A DNA stretch of 64,000 nucleotides, from NCBI GenBank assembly GCA_945889445.1, contig CAMDBX010000014.1, positions 1 to 64,000 of the forward strand. The letters are read 5' to 3'. This stretch comes from Rhizobium sp. Q54 (GTDB lineage Bacteria > Pseudomonadota > Alphaproteobacteria > Rhizobiales > Aestuariivirgaceae). How positions within the stretch are numbered: the first letter of the stretch is position 1; each line of letters opens with the position of its first letter. The notes under the pieces are model-generated. The model made no database searches, was not told where the DNA came from, and saw only the letters and a program-made list of their open reading frames with translations. This document shows, piece by piece, positions 7,612-18,937 of this stretch. Made by a program: the position numbers and the translations under genes.

Positions 7612-9591
7612 TTAGGCGGCGGCGCGCCCGTCGCGATGCGACGGGGCAACCGGCCGCAGGCGGCCATCCTCTGGCAATGGCTCATGCGCGGCCCAGCTCT
7701 CGAGCGCGGCGGCATAGAGATCAGCAGCAATGCTCTCACCCTCGCGACCCTCGACAAGACCCAGGCCGACCTCCTCATAGACCGGAAGATTGGTGAGATC
7801 GGGAACGGGAAGATCGCCCGTGCGGAACTCGTCCCACATCCGGTCGTAGAGGCCTTCGAGACTCTTCACCAGCAGCGGCACGTCGAACAGCACGCAGTGG
7901 TCCCGCCCGGCGCGTAGTCGACGGCGCAACTCCGCCGCGGCACTCGGCACGGCGGCGATGGCGATGGCGCGCGCGACATAGTCATCAAGATTGGTGCAGA
8001 CGAGGTCCGGCAGGCCGGCATTCTTTACCAGTCCGGCGCAGACGCGCGCCGCGAAGCCCTGGCCTTCCAGCGTCAGCACCGGCGTTCCCATCGACATTGC
8101 GTCAGAAGCAGTGGTGTGTGCGCCATAGGGGAAGGTATCGAGGAACAGGTCAGCCAGAGCATAACGCGCCAGGTGCTGTGGATTGGGCCGCTTCGGCGCG
8201 AAGCAGATTCGCTCCGGCGCAACTCCGGCGGCCGCGGCCAGCAGGCGCAGCCGCTGGTTGGTCTCGGGTCCGGCATCGAGAAGCCACAACACGCTGCCCT
8301 CGGTTGTGGCGAGAATCTTCATCCAGGCGCCAAACAGCTGTGGCGTGAGTTTCTGCGCACCGTTGAGGCAGCAGAAGACGAAACCCTTTTCGGGCAGGCC
8401 TTCGGCATTGCGTTGCGGCGGCTCCGGCGCGATCACACGCTTGCGGTCATTGGGCTGGTAGCAGGGAAGCCGAAGCACGCGCTCGGTGAAGAGGCGCTCA
8501 TGGCCTTCCGGTACCACATGAGGGTCGGCAATGACATAGTGATGATAGGGCGTTCCCATGGTGCCCGGAAAGCCAAACCAGTTGGCGGCGATGGGGGCGG
8601 GGCGGCGGGCGAAGACCGCCGTGCGGGCATCACGCGTGTAGCCATTCACGTCCACCAGAATGTCGATCCCGTCGGCGGCAATGCGCGCTGCCGCGGCATC
8701 GTCCGAAAGGCCCGTGATGTCAGTCCAGTGATCGACGGCGGAGCGGATGCGCTCACGCGTACCGTCATCGCGCGGGATGCCGCAGTAATAGGCGTGGATA
8801 TCGAAGCGGCCGCGGTCATGGAGTTCCATCACCTCACAGAGTCCGAAGCCAACCGCATGTTCGCGCAGGTCGGAGGAAACGTAGCCAATCCTGAGGCGTT
8901 TGGGGCGTTCGACCCGGCGTGCTGCGTGGTCGCGCACATGCGCAGGCCGCGCGATCAACTGCCGCGCATAGCTTGCATTGCGCGCAAGCTGGAACACCGG
9001 ATCGTCGAACATCACCGCCGCGGACAGCGGCGAAACATGGGCGAGAAGCTGGCGCGCCTCCACCCCGTCCCAGCCCTGCACCACCGGCCACTTGCATTGC
9101 CGCTGGCGCAGCGCGATCCAGTGCTGGATGGCCTGCGACTGGCCCGGCGAGAGATCGATGGCCTGGCGCAGCGCATCCTCGGCCGGCGCGTCGGCATGGT
9201 TGAATTCCAGCACCCGCCCCAGCTGGTGCAGCGCCATCACCTTGTGGCGCAATGCCGGACCATTGAGGGCGGGAAGCCGATTGACGAGGGCGAGCCACTG
9301 GCTCACCGCCGCCCCGGTCTGACCGAGATCCTCCAGCGCGCGACCGAGATTGATATAGGAGGGGTGGAACTCCGGATCTATCCGCAGCGCGTCGCGCAAG
9401 GCGTTGATGGCGGCAAAGGCATCACCGCTGCGCTGGGCCACCACCGCCATGTTGAAGTGGGCAGCCGCGAGTTGCGGGTCATCCGGATTGAGCGCGATCC
9501 AGCGCTTGTAGAGCGCTGCGGCAGACGCCGCTCCTTCGGTTTTCTCAAGGCTTTCGGCGTCACGAAACAGCGCGGCGATGGCGGATGACAA
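7612..9591 (-). CDS. TPR-containing O-linked N-acetylglucosamine transferase-like protein (GT41/SPINDLY-type)
   Basis: TPR N-terminus; 'RIGYVSSDLREHAVGFGL', 'FCCLNGAQKLTPQLFGAWMKIL', 'FLDTFPYGAHTTASDAMSMGTPVLTLEGQGFAARV' match GT41 catalytic blocks. Confidence 0.88.
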   Translation of the reverse strand: MSSAIAALFRDAESLEKTEGAASAAALYKRWIALNPDDPQLAAAHFNMAVVAQRSGDAFAAINALRDALRIDPEFHPSYINLGRALEDLGQTGAAVSQWLALVNRLPALNGPALRHKVMALHQLGRVLEFNHADAPAEDALRQAIDLSPGQSQAIQHWIALRQRQCKWPVVQGWDGVEARQLLAHVSPLSAAVMFDDPVFQLARNASYARQLIARPAHVRDHAARRVERPKRLRIGYVSSDLREHAVGFGLCEVMELHDRGRFDIHAYYCGIPRDDGTRERIRSAVDHWTDITGLSDDAAAARIAADGIDILVDVNGYTRDARTAVFARRPAPIAANWFGFPGTMGTPYHHYVIADPHVVPEGHERLFTERVLRLPCYQPNDRKRVIAPEPPQRNAEGLPEKGFVFCCLNGAQKLTPQLFGAWMKILATTEGSVLWLLDAGPETNQRLRLLAAAAGVAPERICFAPKRPNPQHLARYALADLFLDTFPYGAHTTASDAMSMGTPVLTLEGQGFAARVCAGLVKNAGLPDLVCTNLDDYVARAIAIAAVPSAAAELRRRLRAGRDHCVLFDVPLLVKSLEGLYDRMWDEFRTGDLPVPDLTNLPVYEEVGLGLVEGREGESIAADLYAAALESWAAHEPLPEDGRLRPVAPSHRDGRAAA

Positions 9592-9609
9592 GGCTCGTGG
9601 TACTCCGGC

Positions 9610-12471
9610 TTAGGCGTTGGAGGCGATGATGAGGGCGGTGAGCTGATCGGAGTTCATCAGCCCGATCTGCGAGGTGGTAAAGGCATTGGCCTGAGTGCTC
9701 GAGAGAGCGGCGATCTGGTCGGTCGTGATGCCGGCGATGGCCGAGACCGCGAGCGACGGCAAGCCGGTGGTTTCGTTGAGCGCCGCGAAGTTGGTGGTGC
9801 TGAGGGCCGCCACCTGGGCAGAGGTGAGGGCGCCAGCCTGCGTGGCGTTCAGGCCGGAGAAGATCGTGGTGTCGAGACTGTCCAGCGCCAAGGGCGTGAT
9901 GGCGCGGAACTGGGCGGCGTCGAGCGTGCCGATCTGCGTGGTGGTGAAGTTGTTCAGCGCCGTGGAACCGAGGCCGCCGATCTGCGCAGTCGACAGCGAT
10001 GCGGCGGTGAGGAGGTTCAGCTGCGAGGTGTCCATCGCGTTGAGCTGGCTCGTGGTGAAGCCGCGCAGCTGGGTGGAGTTCAGCAGGCCGATCTGCGTAT
10101 CGGAGAAATCCGATATCTCGGTGGTGGTGAGGCCAGCAAGCTGGGTGGCCGTCACCGCGCCGAGTTGCGTGGTGCTCCAGGCCTGGATATCGGTGGAGCC
10201 AAGGGCCGACAGGCTGCCCGCCGAAAGCGCGCCGATCTGGCCGGCCGAGAGCGCCTGCACCTGCGTGCTGGACAGGTTGCCCGCCGCCGTGGTGTCGAGG
10301 CCCGCCACCTGCTGGGTGGAGAGCGAGGCGACATCGAGCGCCTGCAGGTAGCTGGTCGACAGGGCGCTCAGCTGCGTGGCGTTCAGGCCGCGCAACTGGG
10401 TGGAGCTGAAGTCGGCAAGCTGCTCGGTGGCGAAATCCTCGATTTCGGTGGCGGCGAGTCCCACGAACTGCTGCGAGGTGATGGCGCCCAGCTGCGTCGT
10501 GGACCAACCCTGGAGTTCGGTCGAGGACAGCGCCGCAAGGGTGGTGGCCGAGAGCACGGCGATCTGCGCGGTGGTCAAACCCTGCGCCTGGGTGGTGGAG
10601 AGCGCGTCGATTGCCGTGGCGTTCATGGCACGGACCTGGGCGGTGGCGAGATCAGCGACGTTCAACGCATTGAGCTGCGTCGTACCCAGCGCGTTGAGCT
10701 GGCTGGAGGTGAAGCCACGAACCTGCGTCGACGTCAGCTGGCCCAGCTGCGTGTCCGAGAAGTTGGCAATCGCCGTGGTGGTGAGCTGCGACAGCTGGCG
10801 GGTGGTGATGGCGCCAAGCTGGGTGGTGCTCCAGGCCTGCAGATCGGCGCTGTCAATGGCGGCAAGCCCCGTCGCCGTCATGGCCGTGACCTGGGTGACG
10901 GTGAACGCCCGGGCCTGCGTCGATGTGAGGTTGTCGACTGCGGTGGAGCTGAGACCTGCAACCTGCGTGCCGGACAGGCTGGTGACGTCAAGCGCATTCA
11001 ACTGGCTGGTGGCGAGGCCGTTGAGCTGGGTGGAGGTGAGGCCGCGCAGCTGCGAGGAGGTCATCTGGCCCAGCTGCGTGTCGGAGAAGTCGGCAAGGCC
11101 GGTGGTGGTGAGGCCGGCCAGCTGCTGGGAGGTGACGGCGCCGAGCTGTGTCGTCGACCAGCCCTGGACATCGGTCGAGGACAAGGCTTCGAGGCCGGCC
11201 GCCGAGAGGGCGCCGATCTGCAGCGTGCCCAGCGCCTGCGCCTGGGTGTCCGACAGCGCATCAATGGCGGTCGAGCTCATGTTGCGGATCTGCGAAACCG
11301 AGAGGTCAGTGACGTTCAATGCGTTGAGCTGTGTGGTGGCGAGGTTGTTGAGCTGGGTGGAGGTGAGGCCCTTCACCTGGGTGCCGGAGAACTGGCCCAG
11401 CTGGGTGTCCGAGAAGTCAGCCAGCCCCGTGGTGGTGAGGCCGGCCAGCTGCTGGGAGGTGATGGCACCCAGCTGCGTCGTCGACCAGCCCTGCACCTCG
11501 GTGGAGGACAGCGCGTCGAGGCCGGTTGCCGACATGGCGGCGATCTGGGCAGTGGTCAATGCCTGCGCCTGGGTGTCGGTCAGCGCGTCGATAGCCGTTG
11601 CGTTCATGCCGCGGACCTGCGCAGCCGACAGGCTGGCGACGTCGATGGCATTGAGTTGCGTAGTGGCCAGGCTGTTGAGCTGCAGCGTGGTCAGGCCACG
11701 CAGCTGCGTCGAGCTGAGCTGGCCCAGCTGCGTGTCCGAGAAGTCGGCGAGTGCGGTGGTGGTCAGCCCACCCAGCTGCTGGGCGGTGATGGCGCCGAGC
11801 TGGGTCGTCGACCAGCCCTGCACTTCCGTCGAGCTCAGGGCCTCGAGGCCGCCAGCCGAGAGGACCGCGATCTGCGACACGGTGAGGGCCTGCGCCTGTG
11901 TGGTCGACAGCGCGTCAACCGCCGTCGCGTTCATGCCGCGAAGCTGCGTGGCGGAAAGATCGGCAATGTTCAGGGCATTGAGCTGCGTGGTTGCGAGAAC
12001 GTTGAGCTGGCTCGTGGTGAGACCCCGCACCTGCGTGGAGGTAAGCTGGCCCAGCTGCGTGTCCGAGAAGTCGGCGAGTGCTGTGGTTGTCAGCCCCGCA
12101 AGCTGGCGCGAGGTGATTGCGCCCAGCTGGGTGGTGTTCCAGGCCTGGATATCGGTCGACTCGAGGGCCTCCACCGCATAGGCCTGGAGCAGGCCGATCT
12201 GACCGGTGGTGAGAGCGGCGGCCTGCGTGTCCGCGAGATTGGTGATGGTCGCCGCGATCAGCGACTTGATGGCTGTGGAGGAGATCGCCTGTACCTGATT
12301 GGTGTCGAGGGTTGTCAGGTCGGTTGTTTCCATCGCATTGATCTGCGAGGCGGTGAGGGCTGAGACCTGCGTGGTGCTGAGTGCTGCGACATCGGTCGTC
12401 GACAGGGCCCTGATGGCCGTGGTGCTCAGGGTGGCAATCTGCCGGTTGGTCAGCGACGAAACGATCGACAT
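9610..12471 (-). CDS. Ser/Thr/Gln-rich octapeptide-repeat protein (953 aa), unknown function
   Basis: Repeating [hydrophobic]-[ST]-x-T-Q-[LIV]-x-[AG]; no obvious N-terminal signal peptide; no Cys seen; stop lies 18 bp before the GT41 gene. Confidence 0.9.
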   Translation of the reverse strand: MSIVSSLTNRQIATLSTTAIRALSTTDVAALSTTQVSALTASQINAMETTDLTTLDTNQVQAISSTAIKSLIAATITNLADTQAAALTTGQIGLLQAYAVEALESTDIQAWNTTQLGAITSRQLAGLTTTALADFSDTQLGQLTSTQVRGLTTSQLNVLATTQLNALNIADLSATQLRGMNATAVDALSTTQAQALTVSQIAVLSAGGLEALSSTEVQGWSTTQLGAITAQQLGGLTTTALADFSDTQLGQLSSTQLRGLTTLQLNSLATTQLNAIDVASLSAAQVRGMNATAIDALTDTQAQALTTAQIAAMSATGLDALSSTEVQGWSTTQLGAITSQQLAGLTTTGLADFSDTQLGQFSGTQVKGLTSTQLNNLATTQLNALNVTDLSVSQIRNMSSTAIDALSDTQAQALGTLQIGALSAAGLEALSSTDVQGWSTTQLGAVTSQQLAGLTTTGLADFSDTQLGQMTSSQLRGLTSTQLNGLATSQLNALDVTSLSGTQVAGLSSTAVDNLTSTQARAFTVTQVTAMTATGLAAIDSADLQAWSTTQLGAITTRQLSQLTTTAIANFSDTQLGQLTSTQVRGFTSSQLNALGTTQLNALNVADLATAQVRAMNATAIDALSTTQAQGLTTAQIAVLSATTLAALSSTELQGWSTTQLGAITSQQFVGLAATEIEDFATEQLADFSSTQLRGLNATQLSALSTSYLQALDVASLSTQQVAGLDTTAAGNLSSTQVQALSAGQIGALSAGSLSALGSTDIQAWSTTQLGAVTATQLAGLTTTEISDFSDTQIGLLNSTQLRGFTTSQLNAMDTSQLNLLTAASLSTAQIGGLGSTALNNFTTTQIGTLDAAQFRAITPLALDSLDTTIFSGLNATQAGALTSAQVAALSTTNFAALNETTGLPSLAVSAIAGITTDQIAALSSTQANAFTTSQIGLMNSDQLTALIIASNA
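9850..12180 (-). repeat. In-frame 327-bp (109-aa) tandem super-repeat, about 7 copies, made of 8-aa units
   Basis: Trp codons (CCA on +) at 12139, 11812, 11485, 11158, 10831, 10504, 10177, each 327 bp apart; a second anchor (DTQLGQ codons) at 12052, 11725, 11398, 11071, 10744, 10417, 10090, also 327 bp apart. Array ends approximate. Confidence 0.92.
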
Positions 12472-12692
12472 AGATGGGCTCCCGCTGGGCGGTGCGGTTC
12501 CGCACGCCCAATCAACCTCACGATCCGCATGGATGACATTGCCGCCGCAACCCTGCGCGAGACTTGCACAGTGCTCAGATGGTCAGGGACAGGACGGGAT
12601 TGGCGGGGGCGTCATGCCCAGGAGCCGTGATAGCTCACCTTCCGCGGCGCTGAGACTAGCGGCGGAATCCTAACAGGGGCTTAAGCGCACAT

Positions 12693-16282
<3,590 letters not shown>

Positions 16283-16291
16283 AAAGGAGGC

Positions 16292-17404
16292 TTACACCCG
16301 CATGGGCATGAGCACATAGAGGGCCTGTTCGTCAGTCGGGTCGCGCACGATGGTGGGCGATCCGGCATCCGCCAACAGCAGTTCCATACCATCGGACTTC
16401 ATCTGCCCGGCCACGTCGAGGAGGTAGCGCGAGTTGAAGCCGATCTCCATCGGCTCGGCCTCGTAGGCGCAGGCGACTTCCTCCTCGGCCGAACCTGAGT
16501 CCGGATTGTTGACGGTGAGGATCACCTTGTTGCCGCCGATCGCCAGCTTCACGGCGCGGCCCTTTTCCTGCGAGATGGTGGACACGCGGTCCACCGCGGC
16601 GGCAAAGCTCTTGGTGTCGAGTTCCAGCTTCCTGTCGTTGTTGCGCGGGATGACCCGCTCATAATCGGGGAAGGTGCCGTCAATGAGCTTCGATGTCAGC
16701 ACCAGATCACCCGCCGAAAACCGGATCTTGGCGCCAGAAAGCGAGACCTCGACGGCGCCATCCACGCCCTCGAACAGCTTCACCACCTCCAGCACGGTCT
16801 TGCGCGGCACGATGATGCCGGGCATGCCCTTGGCGCCATCGGGACGCGCGATCTGGGCCTGGGCCAGGCGGTGGCCGTCGGTGGCCACCGCGCGCAGCAG
16901 GCCACCCGCCGCGACGTCGTGGAAATAGATGCCGTTGAGATAGTAGCGCGTCTCCTCGGTCGAGATCGCGAAGCGCGTCTTCTCGATCAGGGCCCGCAGA
17001 TCGGCACCGGCGATGGCGAAGGTGTTGGGGAAATCGCCGGCTGCAAGGTCGGGGAAGTCCTCGTGCGGAAGGGCCTGCAGCGCGAAGCGCGACCGGCCGG
17101 CGAAGATCGACACGCGCTGCCCGTCCCCCGCCTGCTCGAGTTCGAGCTGGGCGCCGTCGGGAAGCTTCCTGACGATGTCATAGAGCATGTGGGCCGGCAC
17201 CGTGGTGGCGCCGGACTTGGACACCTCGGCCGGCACGCTCTCAACGATCTCGATGTCGAGGTCGGTGGCCGTCAGCTTCAGCTGGCCGTCGCCTGCCTGA
17301 AGCAGCACGTTGGACAGGATCGGAATGGTATTCCGGCGCTCGACGACGCTCTGCACGTGGGTGAGCGCCTTGAGGAAAGCTGACCTTTCGATCGTGACAC
17401 GCAT
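16292..17404 (-). CDS. dnaN: DNA polymerase III beta clamp
   Basis: 'MRVTIERSAFLKALTHVQSVVERRNTIPILSNVLL'; C-terminal 'YVLMPMRV'; internal Met at 17404 preferred over ORF start 17440. Confidence 0.96.
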   Translation of the reverse strand: MRVTIERSAFLKALTHVQSVVERRNTIPILSNVLLQAGDGQLKLTATDLDIEIVESVPAEVSKSGATTVPAHMLYDIVRKLPDGAQLELEQAGDGQRVSIFAGRSRFALQALPHEDFPDLAAGDFPNTFAIAGADLRALIEKTRFAISTEETRYYLNGIYFHDVAAGGLLRAVATDGHRLAQAQIARPDGAKGMPGIIVPRKTVLEVVKLFEGVDGAVEVSLSGAKIRFSAGDLVLTSKLIDGTFPDYERVIPRNNDRKLELDTKSFAAAVDRVSTISQEKGRAVKLAIGGNKVILTVNNPDSGSAEEEVACAYEAEPMEIGFNSRYLLDVAGQMKSDGMELLLADAGSPTIVRDPTDEQALYVLMPMRV

Positions 17405-17500
17405 GAGCCGGTAATCCCTCGTCCTGTGGTTTCCGGCCATTCGCCGGGCCGGAAACTTTGGCGCGGAAACCGCACCAATTCAAGGGTTATCGGGGGTTTT

Positions 17501-18937
17501 TCAGCCCTGTTCGACGAGGCGGATGAGCAAAGCCACCTCGCGGGCAAGCTTGTCGTCCGTCTTGATCTGGTCCTCGATCTTGCGCACGGCGTGCAGCACC
17601 GTCGAATGATCCCTTCCACCGAAGCGGCGGCCGATCTCAGGCAATGACCGGGCGGTCATCTTCTTGGCCAGATACATGCCGATCTGGCGCGGAACGACCA
17701 CACTGCGCGCCCTGCGGGGCGACAGGAGGTCGGTGCGGCCAACATTGAAATGGCGGCCGACGATCTTCAGGATGTCGTCGATCTTGATACGCGAGCCGTC
17801 GGGGTTGGCCTGCATGTCGCGCAGCACCAGGGACGCCAGGTCAAGCGTCACGGCGGAATGGTTGAACTGCTGGTAGGCGGTGATGCGGTTCAGTGCCCCT
17901 TCCAGCTCGCGGCCCGTGCCGTTGACACGGTTGGCGATGAACTCCAGCACCTCGTCGGGGATCAGCACCGAGGGGTCGCGCTTCTGCATGGTTTCGTAGC
18001 GGCTCTGTAGGATGCGGCGGCGGGTGTCGAGGTCCGGCATCTCGATGTCGACGACGAGGCCGCCCATCAGCCGCGAGCGCATGCGCTGGTCGATCGAGTC
18101 AAGCTGTGAGGGCGGCACGTCGGCCGCCACGATCACCTGGCGGCGAGAGTCGACCAGGCCGTTGAAGGCATTGCAGAACTCTTGCTGCATGGTCTTGCCC
18201 TGCAGAAACTGGAAGTCGTCGATCAGCAGAACGTCCACCGCGGCGAACTGGTCCTTGAAGGCCAGCGTGTCACGCTGGCGCAACGCCATCACGAAATTGA
18301 TCATGAAGCGCTCGGCGGTGAGGAACATCACCTTGCGGTCCGGTCGCCGCTCCTTCACGCGGTGCGTCACTGCCGACAGAAGATGCGTCTTGCCCAGCCC
18401 CGAGCCGGCATGGATGAACAGCGGGTTGAAGCTGACGACGGCGCCCGGTGCCGCATCGGCGACGCGGCACATGGCGGCGTGGGCGAGCTGGTTCGAGGAT
18501 CCGATGACGAAGGTCTCGAATGTCTGGTACGGGTCCAGCTGCGGCCCGCGATCTGCGGCGGCAGCCTGGGCCGCGGCCATCACCGCGGGGGTGGGCTGCG
18601 GGGACATCGCGGGCTGCGGCGCATGCGCGGCATGATTGTCAGCGGCGGCGCGCTGCGGAACGCCAGCCCGCATGCGAACGCGCACGTGGATGGTGTCGAA
18701 GCGGCCGAGTTCGGCCTCGCTGATCTTGTGCAGCTTCGAGACGTAATGGGTCTCGATCCATGACTTCAGGAAGCGGGTCGGAACGGAAACGATGAGGCGG
18801 CCCTGCTCGAACTCCTCGATCTCCATGCGCGCGAACCACGAAGTGTAGAGATCTTCACCAAGTTCAGCCCGAAGCCGAAGCGCAACACGATCCCACCTCG
18901 TTTTCACGTCCGTCAAAACAGTCATTCTCTTCCGCAT
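17501..18937 (-). CDS. dnaA: Chromosomal replication initiator DnaA
   Basis: 'FNPLFIHAGSGLGKTHLLSAV', 'GGRDHSTVLHAVRKIE' DnaA-box-binding signature; start 18937 or 18925. Confidence 0.97.
   Translation of the reverse strand: MRKRMTVLTDVKTRWDRVALRLRAELGEDLYTSWFARMEIEEFEQGRLIVSVPTRFLKSWIETHYVSKLHKISEAELGRFDTIHVRVRMRAGVPQRAAADNHAAHAPQPAMSPQPTPAVMAAAQAAAADRGPQLDPYQTFETFVIGSSNQLAHAAMCRVADAAPGAVVSFNPLFIHAGSGLGKTHLLSAVTHRVKERRPDRKVMFLTAERFMINFVMALRQRDTLAFKDQFAAVDVLLIDDFQFLQGKTMQQEFCNAFNGLVDSRRQVIVAADVPPSQLDSIDQRMRSRLMGGLVVDIEMPDLDTRRRILQSRYETMQKRDPSVLIPDEVLEFIANRVNGTGRELEGALNRITAYQQFNHSAVTLDLASLVLRDMQANPDGSRIKIDDILKIVGRHFNVGRTDLLSPRRARSVVVPRQIGMYLAKKMTARSLPEIGRRFGGRDHSTVLHAVRKIEDQIKTDDKLAREVALLIRLVEQG

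Follow-up and report, generated by a model that had tools for sequence, protein, structure and literature searches.

The window analysed in this work (the whole stretch of DNA, 64,000 nucleotides long) carries a gene coding for a 953-aa ALTTAQ-repeat protein whose octads are grouped into super-repeats of exactly 109 residues with one Trp each, and this gene lies next to one for a GT41 protein glycosyltransferase. The explanation that we favour, and that we regard, taken as a whole, as rather probable, is that the protein is O-glycosylated in the cytoplasm, probably exported, and forms a rigid rod of mini-helices assembled in blocks of four turns. According to this model, the gene product would be an elongated alpha-solenoid whose octads, L-[S/T]-x-x-Q-[LIV]-x-[A/G], would fold into one mini-helix apiece, begun by a capping box together with a hydrophobic staple formed by Leu at N' and N4. 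One turn (~27.3 aa) would take about 3.4 mini-helices; positions 4, 5, and 8 would face inwards, and the Ser/Thr found at positions 1-3 would point outwards. In the clade sharing the 109-aa form, the gene would gain or lose whole 109-aa blocks of four turns, and the slip, an octad minus three residues, would trim 112 residues to 109 and bring each block and its Trp back on the same face. The adjacent GT41 would add sugar to the outward-facing Ser/Thr while the protein is still in the cytoplasm; the rod might then be displayed on the cell exterior or released, an outcome suggested by the type I secretion genes that accompany several relatives. The repeat architecture, the quantised length, and the linkage to GT41 are computational results and the fold is a prediction, whereas the turn register, the glycosylation, the export, and a role as a surface or matrix rod are inferred.

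If this were true, the protein would represent a natural, length-quantised, sugar-coated rod and a new class of substrates for bacterial GT41 enzymes. The ALTTAQ family gains a predicted fold, a numerical rule that ties the length of the super-repeat to the turn of the solenoid, and candidates for an enzyme partner and an export route. Judged by its sequence, the 109-aa form is a variant of an ALTTAQ repeat that is already known. As far as we searched the literature, neither the four-turn block with its slip correction, nor the turn rule, nor the association with GT41 and type I secretion is described, and nothing was found on ALTTAQ, PF20080, or HeliScrew.

Architecture of the repeat protein

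The features of the gene are as follows.

9610..12471 (-): ALTTAQ-repeat protein gene, 953 aa, ATG start, 28% Ser+Thr, without Cys or His
12142..12471 (-): N-terminal octads, residues 1-110, ahead of the first Trp and without a slip (segmentation)
11815..12141 (-): super-repeat 1, 109 aa, beginning at Trp111 (Trp spacing and segmentation, as for all super-repeats below)
11488..11814 (-): super-repeat 2, 109 aa
11161..11487 (-): super-repeat 3, 109 aa
10834..11160 (-): super-repeat 4, 109 aa
10507..10833 (-): super-repeat 5, 109 aa
10180..10506 (-): super-repeat 6, 109 aa
9853..10179 (-): super-repeat 7, 109 aa
11956..11970 (-): slip NIADL of super-repeat 1 (segmentation; a 3-residue helix turn in the prediction)
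11629-11643, 11302-11316, 10975-10989, 10648-10662, 10321-10335, 9994-10008 (-): slips of super-repeats 2-7 (segmentation)
9610..9852 (-): C-terminal octads (residues 874-953) and stop (segmentation)

The protein consists mainly of Thr, Ala, Leu, Ser, and Gln. Its Trp residues are found at positions 111, 220, 329, 438, 547, 656, and 765, every gap being of 109 residues; there is no eighth Trp, in agreement with the preliminary description, which had reported seven Trp codons 327 bp apart and apparently no others, locating each by the lowest base of its codon (that is, of 12139-12141 for the first). A dynamic segmentation of the protein yielded 113 octads and seven 5-residue slips, one per block (in order NIADL, DVASL, NVTDL, DVTSL, NVADL, DVASL, and TAASL), and the block is made up as 13 x 8 + 5 = 109 aa; all the numbers given earlier for 8-aa units nested in a 109-aa super-repeat hold. 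The register itself stands for the seven blocks but does not embrace the whole chain, residues 1-110 and 874-953 being octads outside it, and the last slip reads TAASL. A self-comparison of the sequence gave a lag-109 autocorrelation of 0.53, whereas 200 shuffles never exceeded 0.17 at any lag, and Tandem Repeats Finder (TRF) detected the 327-bp array independently. The 109-aa copies of the window protein share 47-79% identity. A similar C-terminal ending (QANAFT..Q) occurs in some distant relatives.

Family membership and conservation of the 109-aa register

The protein matches the Pfam family PF20080 (ALTTAQ_rpt) in 23 stretches, with E=2.5e-119 and 389.1 bits vs. a gathering cut-off of 26.4; side matches to DUF4351, LRR_EndoS, Gp5_trimer_C, and CAAP1 were taken as repeat cross-matches and set aside. 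The octads of the family, [ST]-x-x-Q-[LIV]-x-[AG]-L, are found in the window protein too, which differs in adding the one-Trp super-repeat of 109 aa with its 5-residue slip, whereas the distant PF20080 members examined have super-repeats that are multiples of 8 and nearly free of slips. Judged by its named relatives, the window falls close to Aestuariivirga.

Nine homologues having the 109-aa form were aligned with the window protein, to which they are 46-86% identical across the part of the alignment seen (ten sequences, 84 copies). The ten lengths (953 aa in six, 1171, 1280 in two, and 1625 aa) all obey 190+109n, with n = 7 in six sequences and 9, 10, 10, and 13 in the others, the last value holding for the 1625-aa sequence after removal of an 18-aa N-terminal extension that precedes the conserved MSIVSS start. 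In each of them the Trp count equals n, with a spacing of 109 aa, and the slip is kept in 84/84 copies. The mean identity is 80% between orthologous copies and 59% between non-orthologous ones; thus, the blocks are old and are not undergoing homogenisation. The dN/dS values of 0.12-0.24 obtained by comparing the repeat gene with four homologues show that it is under purifying selection. The suggestion that copies diverging in sequence but not in length imply selection on the register is borne out by the length rule, the single Trp per copy, and these dN/dS values, and the copy number varies among these sequences, which have 7, 9, 10, or 13 blocks.

Predicted fold

AlphaFold2 predicted the full-length protein with a mean pLDDT of 91.2 and a pTM of 0.57 (ten sequences), and two super-repeats with a pLDDT of 96.5 and a pTM of 0.88 (thirteen sequences). 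At this pLDDT range (91-97) the model is an alpha-solenoid of capped mini-helices, with a helix of 4-6 residues in nearly every octad and a 3-residue helix turn at the slip; a Ser/Thr sits directly before each octad helix, at the N-cap position. The octad conforms to the classical capping box combined with a hydrophobic staple, with Ser/Thr at the N-cap, Gln at N3, and hydrophobic residues at N' and N4. Across the 84 copies, the Gln of position 4 and the Leu of position 8 vary least as judged by entropy, the last slip residue aside. The preliminary description had left helix N-caps and a solenoid as alternatives; the model supports both, since the capped helices of the octads stack into the predicted solenoid and the caps would build it. 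The outcome named beforehand as refuting, disorder together with no 109-aa register in homologues, was not obtained.

The fold is a prediction from one method, alpha and not beta. AlphaFold2 has been found to predict confident beta-solenoids too readily from repeat sequences (PMC11795689), and this, together with the dominance of a few residues in the composition, might favour the idea that the octads are disordered or of low complexity, that the periodicity reflects recent duplication only, and that the model is a repeat artefact. We consider this very improbable: the prediction is alpha-helical, the copies are old and under purifying selection, a modulation of ~27.3 aa (see below) recurs under different super-repeats, and one octad protein has a solved structure. 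The latter, HeliScrew4 (PDB 9ZEM), is the best solved sequence relative of the repeat protein (E=1.3e-7 over 102 aligned residues, both sequences being composition-biased); compared by sequence only, it is likewise a chain of octads, of the type ALTPEQIA, but these are Pro/Glu-rich, the protein has 120 aa, and there is no super-repeat within the aligned part. Its name suggests a designed protein.

A whole-length Foldseek search retrieved mostly generic alpha-solenoids, and the top match of the two-super-repeat model was mesothelin (PDB 8CX3; E=7e-5, probability 1.0). Mesothelin resembles the model in being a solenoid, right-handed and of 24 short helices, but the TM score of only 0.37-0.40 is below the 0.5 expected for the same global fold, the identity is 12%, and mesothelin, a human GPI-anchored protein, has irregular helices and disulfides of its own. 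On the Foldseek evidence, the two proteins would not be homologues.

The probable solenoid turn and the length of the block

The distant relatives have octads without the 109-aa block, in super-repeats of 136, 192, 216, 248, 272, 352, and 488 aa, all multiples of 8 with almost no slips. A Fourier analysis with a fixed 8-residue carrier is unsuited to the 109-aa proteins, whose slips interrupt the phase, and it was redone by octad position. In this form it revealed, in every one of the eight distant relatives first tested, a modulation of 27.0-27.6 aa (3.37-3.45 octads), as the top peak in six and, in two, as the second one behind a peak at 16 aa. The modulation exceeded all 300 octad-order shuffles in seven of the eight, the case of L071 being marginal (11.4 vs. 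a null maximum of 11.5); such shuffles destroy the super-repeat too, so the tests are less strict for super-repeated proteins. It is also present in proteins with a weak or no super-repeat (L069:1-3999, Thioclava, and Shinella). Nine further named relatives gave 27.05-27.39 aa in eight cases; the ninth, Rhizobium CCGE532, peaks most strongly at 19.44 aa, the value to which the second harmonic of ~27.2 aa would be aliased. This modulation of ~27.3 aa, or ~3.4 octads, probably corresponds to the solenoid turn.

An ideal-torsion backbone scan, assuming six helical and two extended residues per octad and taking the most compact clash-free solutions, gave a median of 3.22 octads per turn (interquartile 3.15-3.32; 5-95% range 2.8-3.8) and a rise of ~8.3 A per turn, positions 4, 5, and 8 being nearest the axis, in agreement with the sequence. 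These solutions are left-handed screws, and we make no claim on the handedness of the real protein. The rod would have ~35 turns and a length of about 30 nm.

At 27.25 aa per turn, 109 aa correspond to 4.00 turns, 136 to 4.99, 192 to 7.05, 216 to 7.93, and 248 to 9.10. Since 14 octads (112 aa) would make 4.11 turns, and the loss of three residues brings them to 4.00, the 5-residue slip is probably a correction that restores the register, and blocks of four turns might keep the Trp residues on the same face. According to a different reading, the number 109 would be unrelated to the turn, a duplication accident that was frozen together with a neutral slip. When only the 109-aa clade is considered, the fourth harmonic outranks the other six, yet at p=0.03 only, and the relatives manage without a slip; both facts suit an accident, which we hold to be a real possibility, although not the probable one. 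Against it, 109, 136, 192, 216, and 248 aa all lie no more than 0.1 turn away from a whole number of turns of ~27.25 aa, no multiple of 8 comes as close to four turns as 109 does, and not one of the 84 copies has lost the slip.

The GT41 gene

The neighbour of the repeat gene is the following.

7612..9591 (-): GT41 (OGT/SPINDLY-type) protein glycosyltransferase with N-terminal TPRs, 659 aa, TTG start (Pfam and alignments)

Its Glyco_transf_41 domain (E=3.2e-65) is related to human OGT and XcOGT, with which it shares the His after GYVSSD, the Lys of the CxxN...K segment, and HTT...D, all positions of the OGT active site. The TTG start lies 18 bp downstream of the stop of the repeat gene, and the two genes are probably co-transcribed in the same operon; in most Aestuariivirga-type loci the gap is 16-19 bp. 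Among the 69 genomes of the family searched, 11 have the repeat, and a close GT41 (≥60% identity) is found in exactly the same 11, an overlap whose nominal chance of 5e-13 ignores kinship and is made too small by it.

The pair adjoins gyrB in the window and in several relatives and is elsewhere in G002, G008, and G010. It is also found together in SZAS-4, RBC088, G271, G243, G339, and G785, and in annotated records of Pseudoroseomonas, Rhizobium CCGE532 and ACO-34A, Pseudorhizobium, Rhodovastum, Cereibacter sphaeroides 2.4.1, and a Pseudomonas plasmid. No GT41 was present in the stretch examined in the f197 genomes, Shinella HZN7, Thioclava, and G209, nor in that of the second repeat copies of G243 and G271. 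Because the GT41 stays with the repeat while the surroundings change, its distribution argues for a functional pair. As to its place on the chromosome, in the window (region 7612-18937) the pair comes directly after dnaA-dnaN-recF-gyrB, as in several close relatives; this site is a conserved chromosomal position, and in other members of the genus the pair is located elsewhere.

The GT41 might instead be a flagellin-type or general glycosyltransferase, incidentally adjacent to a repeat protein associated with the flagellum. The repeat gene is found beside flagellar genes in Pseudorhizobium flavum and Rhodovastum, and the modular glycosyltransferase FlmG of Caulobacter acts on flagellins (PMC7591256). 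However, no flagellar gene was seen near the repeat in the window or in the other Aestuariivirga-type loci, nor in Cereibacter and Pseudoroseomonas, and the GT41 accompanies the repeat gene whatever the surroundings, which makes this explanation very improbable. FlmG resembles the proposed pair as a cytoplasmic protein O-glycosyltransferase with an exported structural protein as substrate, and differs in that its substrate is flagellin and not a solenoid repeat protein.

A further comparison is that with HMW1A/HMW1C of Haemophilus, an adhesin and a GT41 N-glucosyltransferase, where a large protein is likewise encoded with a cytoplasmic GT41, which modifies HMW1A before export. The window GT41 is OGT-like (E 1e-83) and not NGT-like (E 1e-9) as HMW1C is; moreover, the repeat protein has no two-partner secretion domain (no Pfam match) and no enrichment in sequons, and the export route differs. 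N-glycosylation was rejected on the sequon count, with 14 N-X-S/T sequons vs. 10.5 +/- 2.6 in shuffles and no consistent excess in homologues. Ser/Thr at outward positions are more frequent in GT41-linked repeats, a weak trend (p=0.006) among kin-related sequences with one clear exception.

The possible sugar donor

A UDP-glucuronate decarboxylase (a relative of PDB 4GLL, E=2e-111) adjoins the GT41 in G008, G010, G243, and Pseudoroseomonas, is separated from it by one gene, that of a UDP-glucose dehydrogenase, in G002, and is close to the GT41 in G271. Several Aestuariivirga relatives are among the genomes with such a decarboxylase near the pair. A UDP-galactopyranose mutase is near the GT41 in Rhizobium CCGE532 and Pseudorhizobium. 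In these two loci (L129, L130) the GT41 is followed by a protein with a Methyltransf_FA domain and the UDP-galactopyranose mutase, an accessory set differing from that of the UDP-glucuronate decarboxylase loci. The sugar donor may, hence, differ by lineage. In the genome of the window no UDP-glucuronate decarboxylase was detected at E 1e-70, and for this reason the donor there would be a different one. UDP-xylose synthase was rejected as an obligate partner, being present in 9/11 carriers vs. 17/58 other genomes (p=0.0017, ignoring kinship) and absent from the genome of the window. The most specific version of our model, in which the GT41 O-xylosylates (in rhizobia, O-galactofuranosylates) a mini-helix solenoid exported by type I secretion, with a length in whole four-turn blocks and a row of Trp in register, is a tentative one, which we would not expect to be correct in all its parts.

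Probable export

Type I secretion genes are found near the repeat and GT41 genes in Niveispirillum (G243), G339 (assigned because its two ORFs closely resemble those of G243), G785, Pseudoroseomonas, a Pseudomonas plasmid, and Cereibacter sphaeroides 2.4.1, where the repeat gene, the GT41, and the exporter are side by side. In this laboratory strain, WP_011836189.1 is the repeat protein, WP_011836188.1 the GT41, and WP_011836187.1 the ABC exporter. By analogy, the repeat protein is probably exported, and the rod would be located at or outside the cell surface, with a possible surface or matrix role.

A structural or scaffold solenoid that remains in the cytoplasm, glycosylated or not, seems to us unlikely, if well worth considering. 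In its favour, no N-terminal signal peptide is recognisable in the 953-aa sequence, no exporter gene was seen near the repeat gene in the window or the other Aestuariivirga-type loci, and no complete type I exporter scored above the cut-offs in the genome of the window. Type I substrates lack N-terminal signals anyway, however, exporter genes are near the repeat in at least six relatives, which belong to several families, and the genome of the window does have an HlyD fragment cut by contig ends, its only type I trace at these cut-offs. This C-terminal piece of HlyD, the type I secretion adaptor, is an identical 330-bp stretch at two contig ends (L124, at the end of G000:C24, and L125, at the start of G000:C46); as these ends indicate, a type I secretion locus of this genome is split by the assembly, and it may be duplicated. 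An HlyB-type exporter was rejected as an obligate partner within the genus, being found in no carrier of the genus (16 candidates per genome scored), and neither RTX nonapeptides (GGxGxDxUx) nor an RTX Pfam match were visible in the repeat protein.

Other carriers and annotations

The pA plasmid of C. sphaeroides 2.4.1 harbours, at L132:12855-17540, an 'ICE nucleation protein' that is an ALTTAQ repeat beside GT41 and exporter genes, and other ALTTAQ relatives are annotated as 'heme utilization protein'. Neither Pfam nor NCBIfam gave a match to ice-nucleation or heme-utilization families, and both labels are probably mis-annotations. The f197 genomes (L111, L114; G506, G551) encode ALTTAQ proteins of >4000-5000 residues.

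Residues 502-608 of the repeat protein are matched by phrog_15773 (a PHROG with no assigned function; E=1.4e-16), which indicates that some phage protein has similar octads; a phage origin of the repeat was discarded, as tblastn retrieved no match in phage records despite this one PHROG match. Finally, a protein encoded by a plasmid of a Spiroplasma endosymbiont (CP117533.1:13948-15333), far outside Pseudomonadota, matches the repeat over the whole query with 23% identity.
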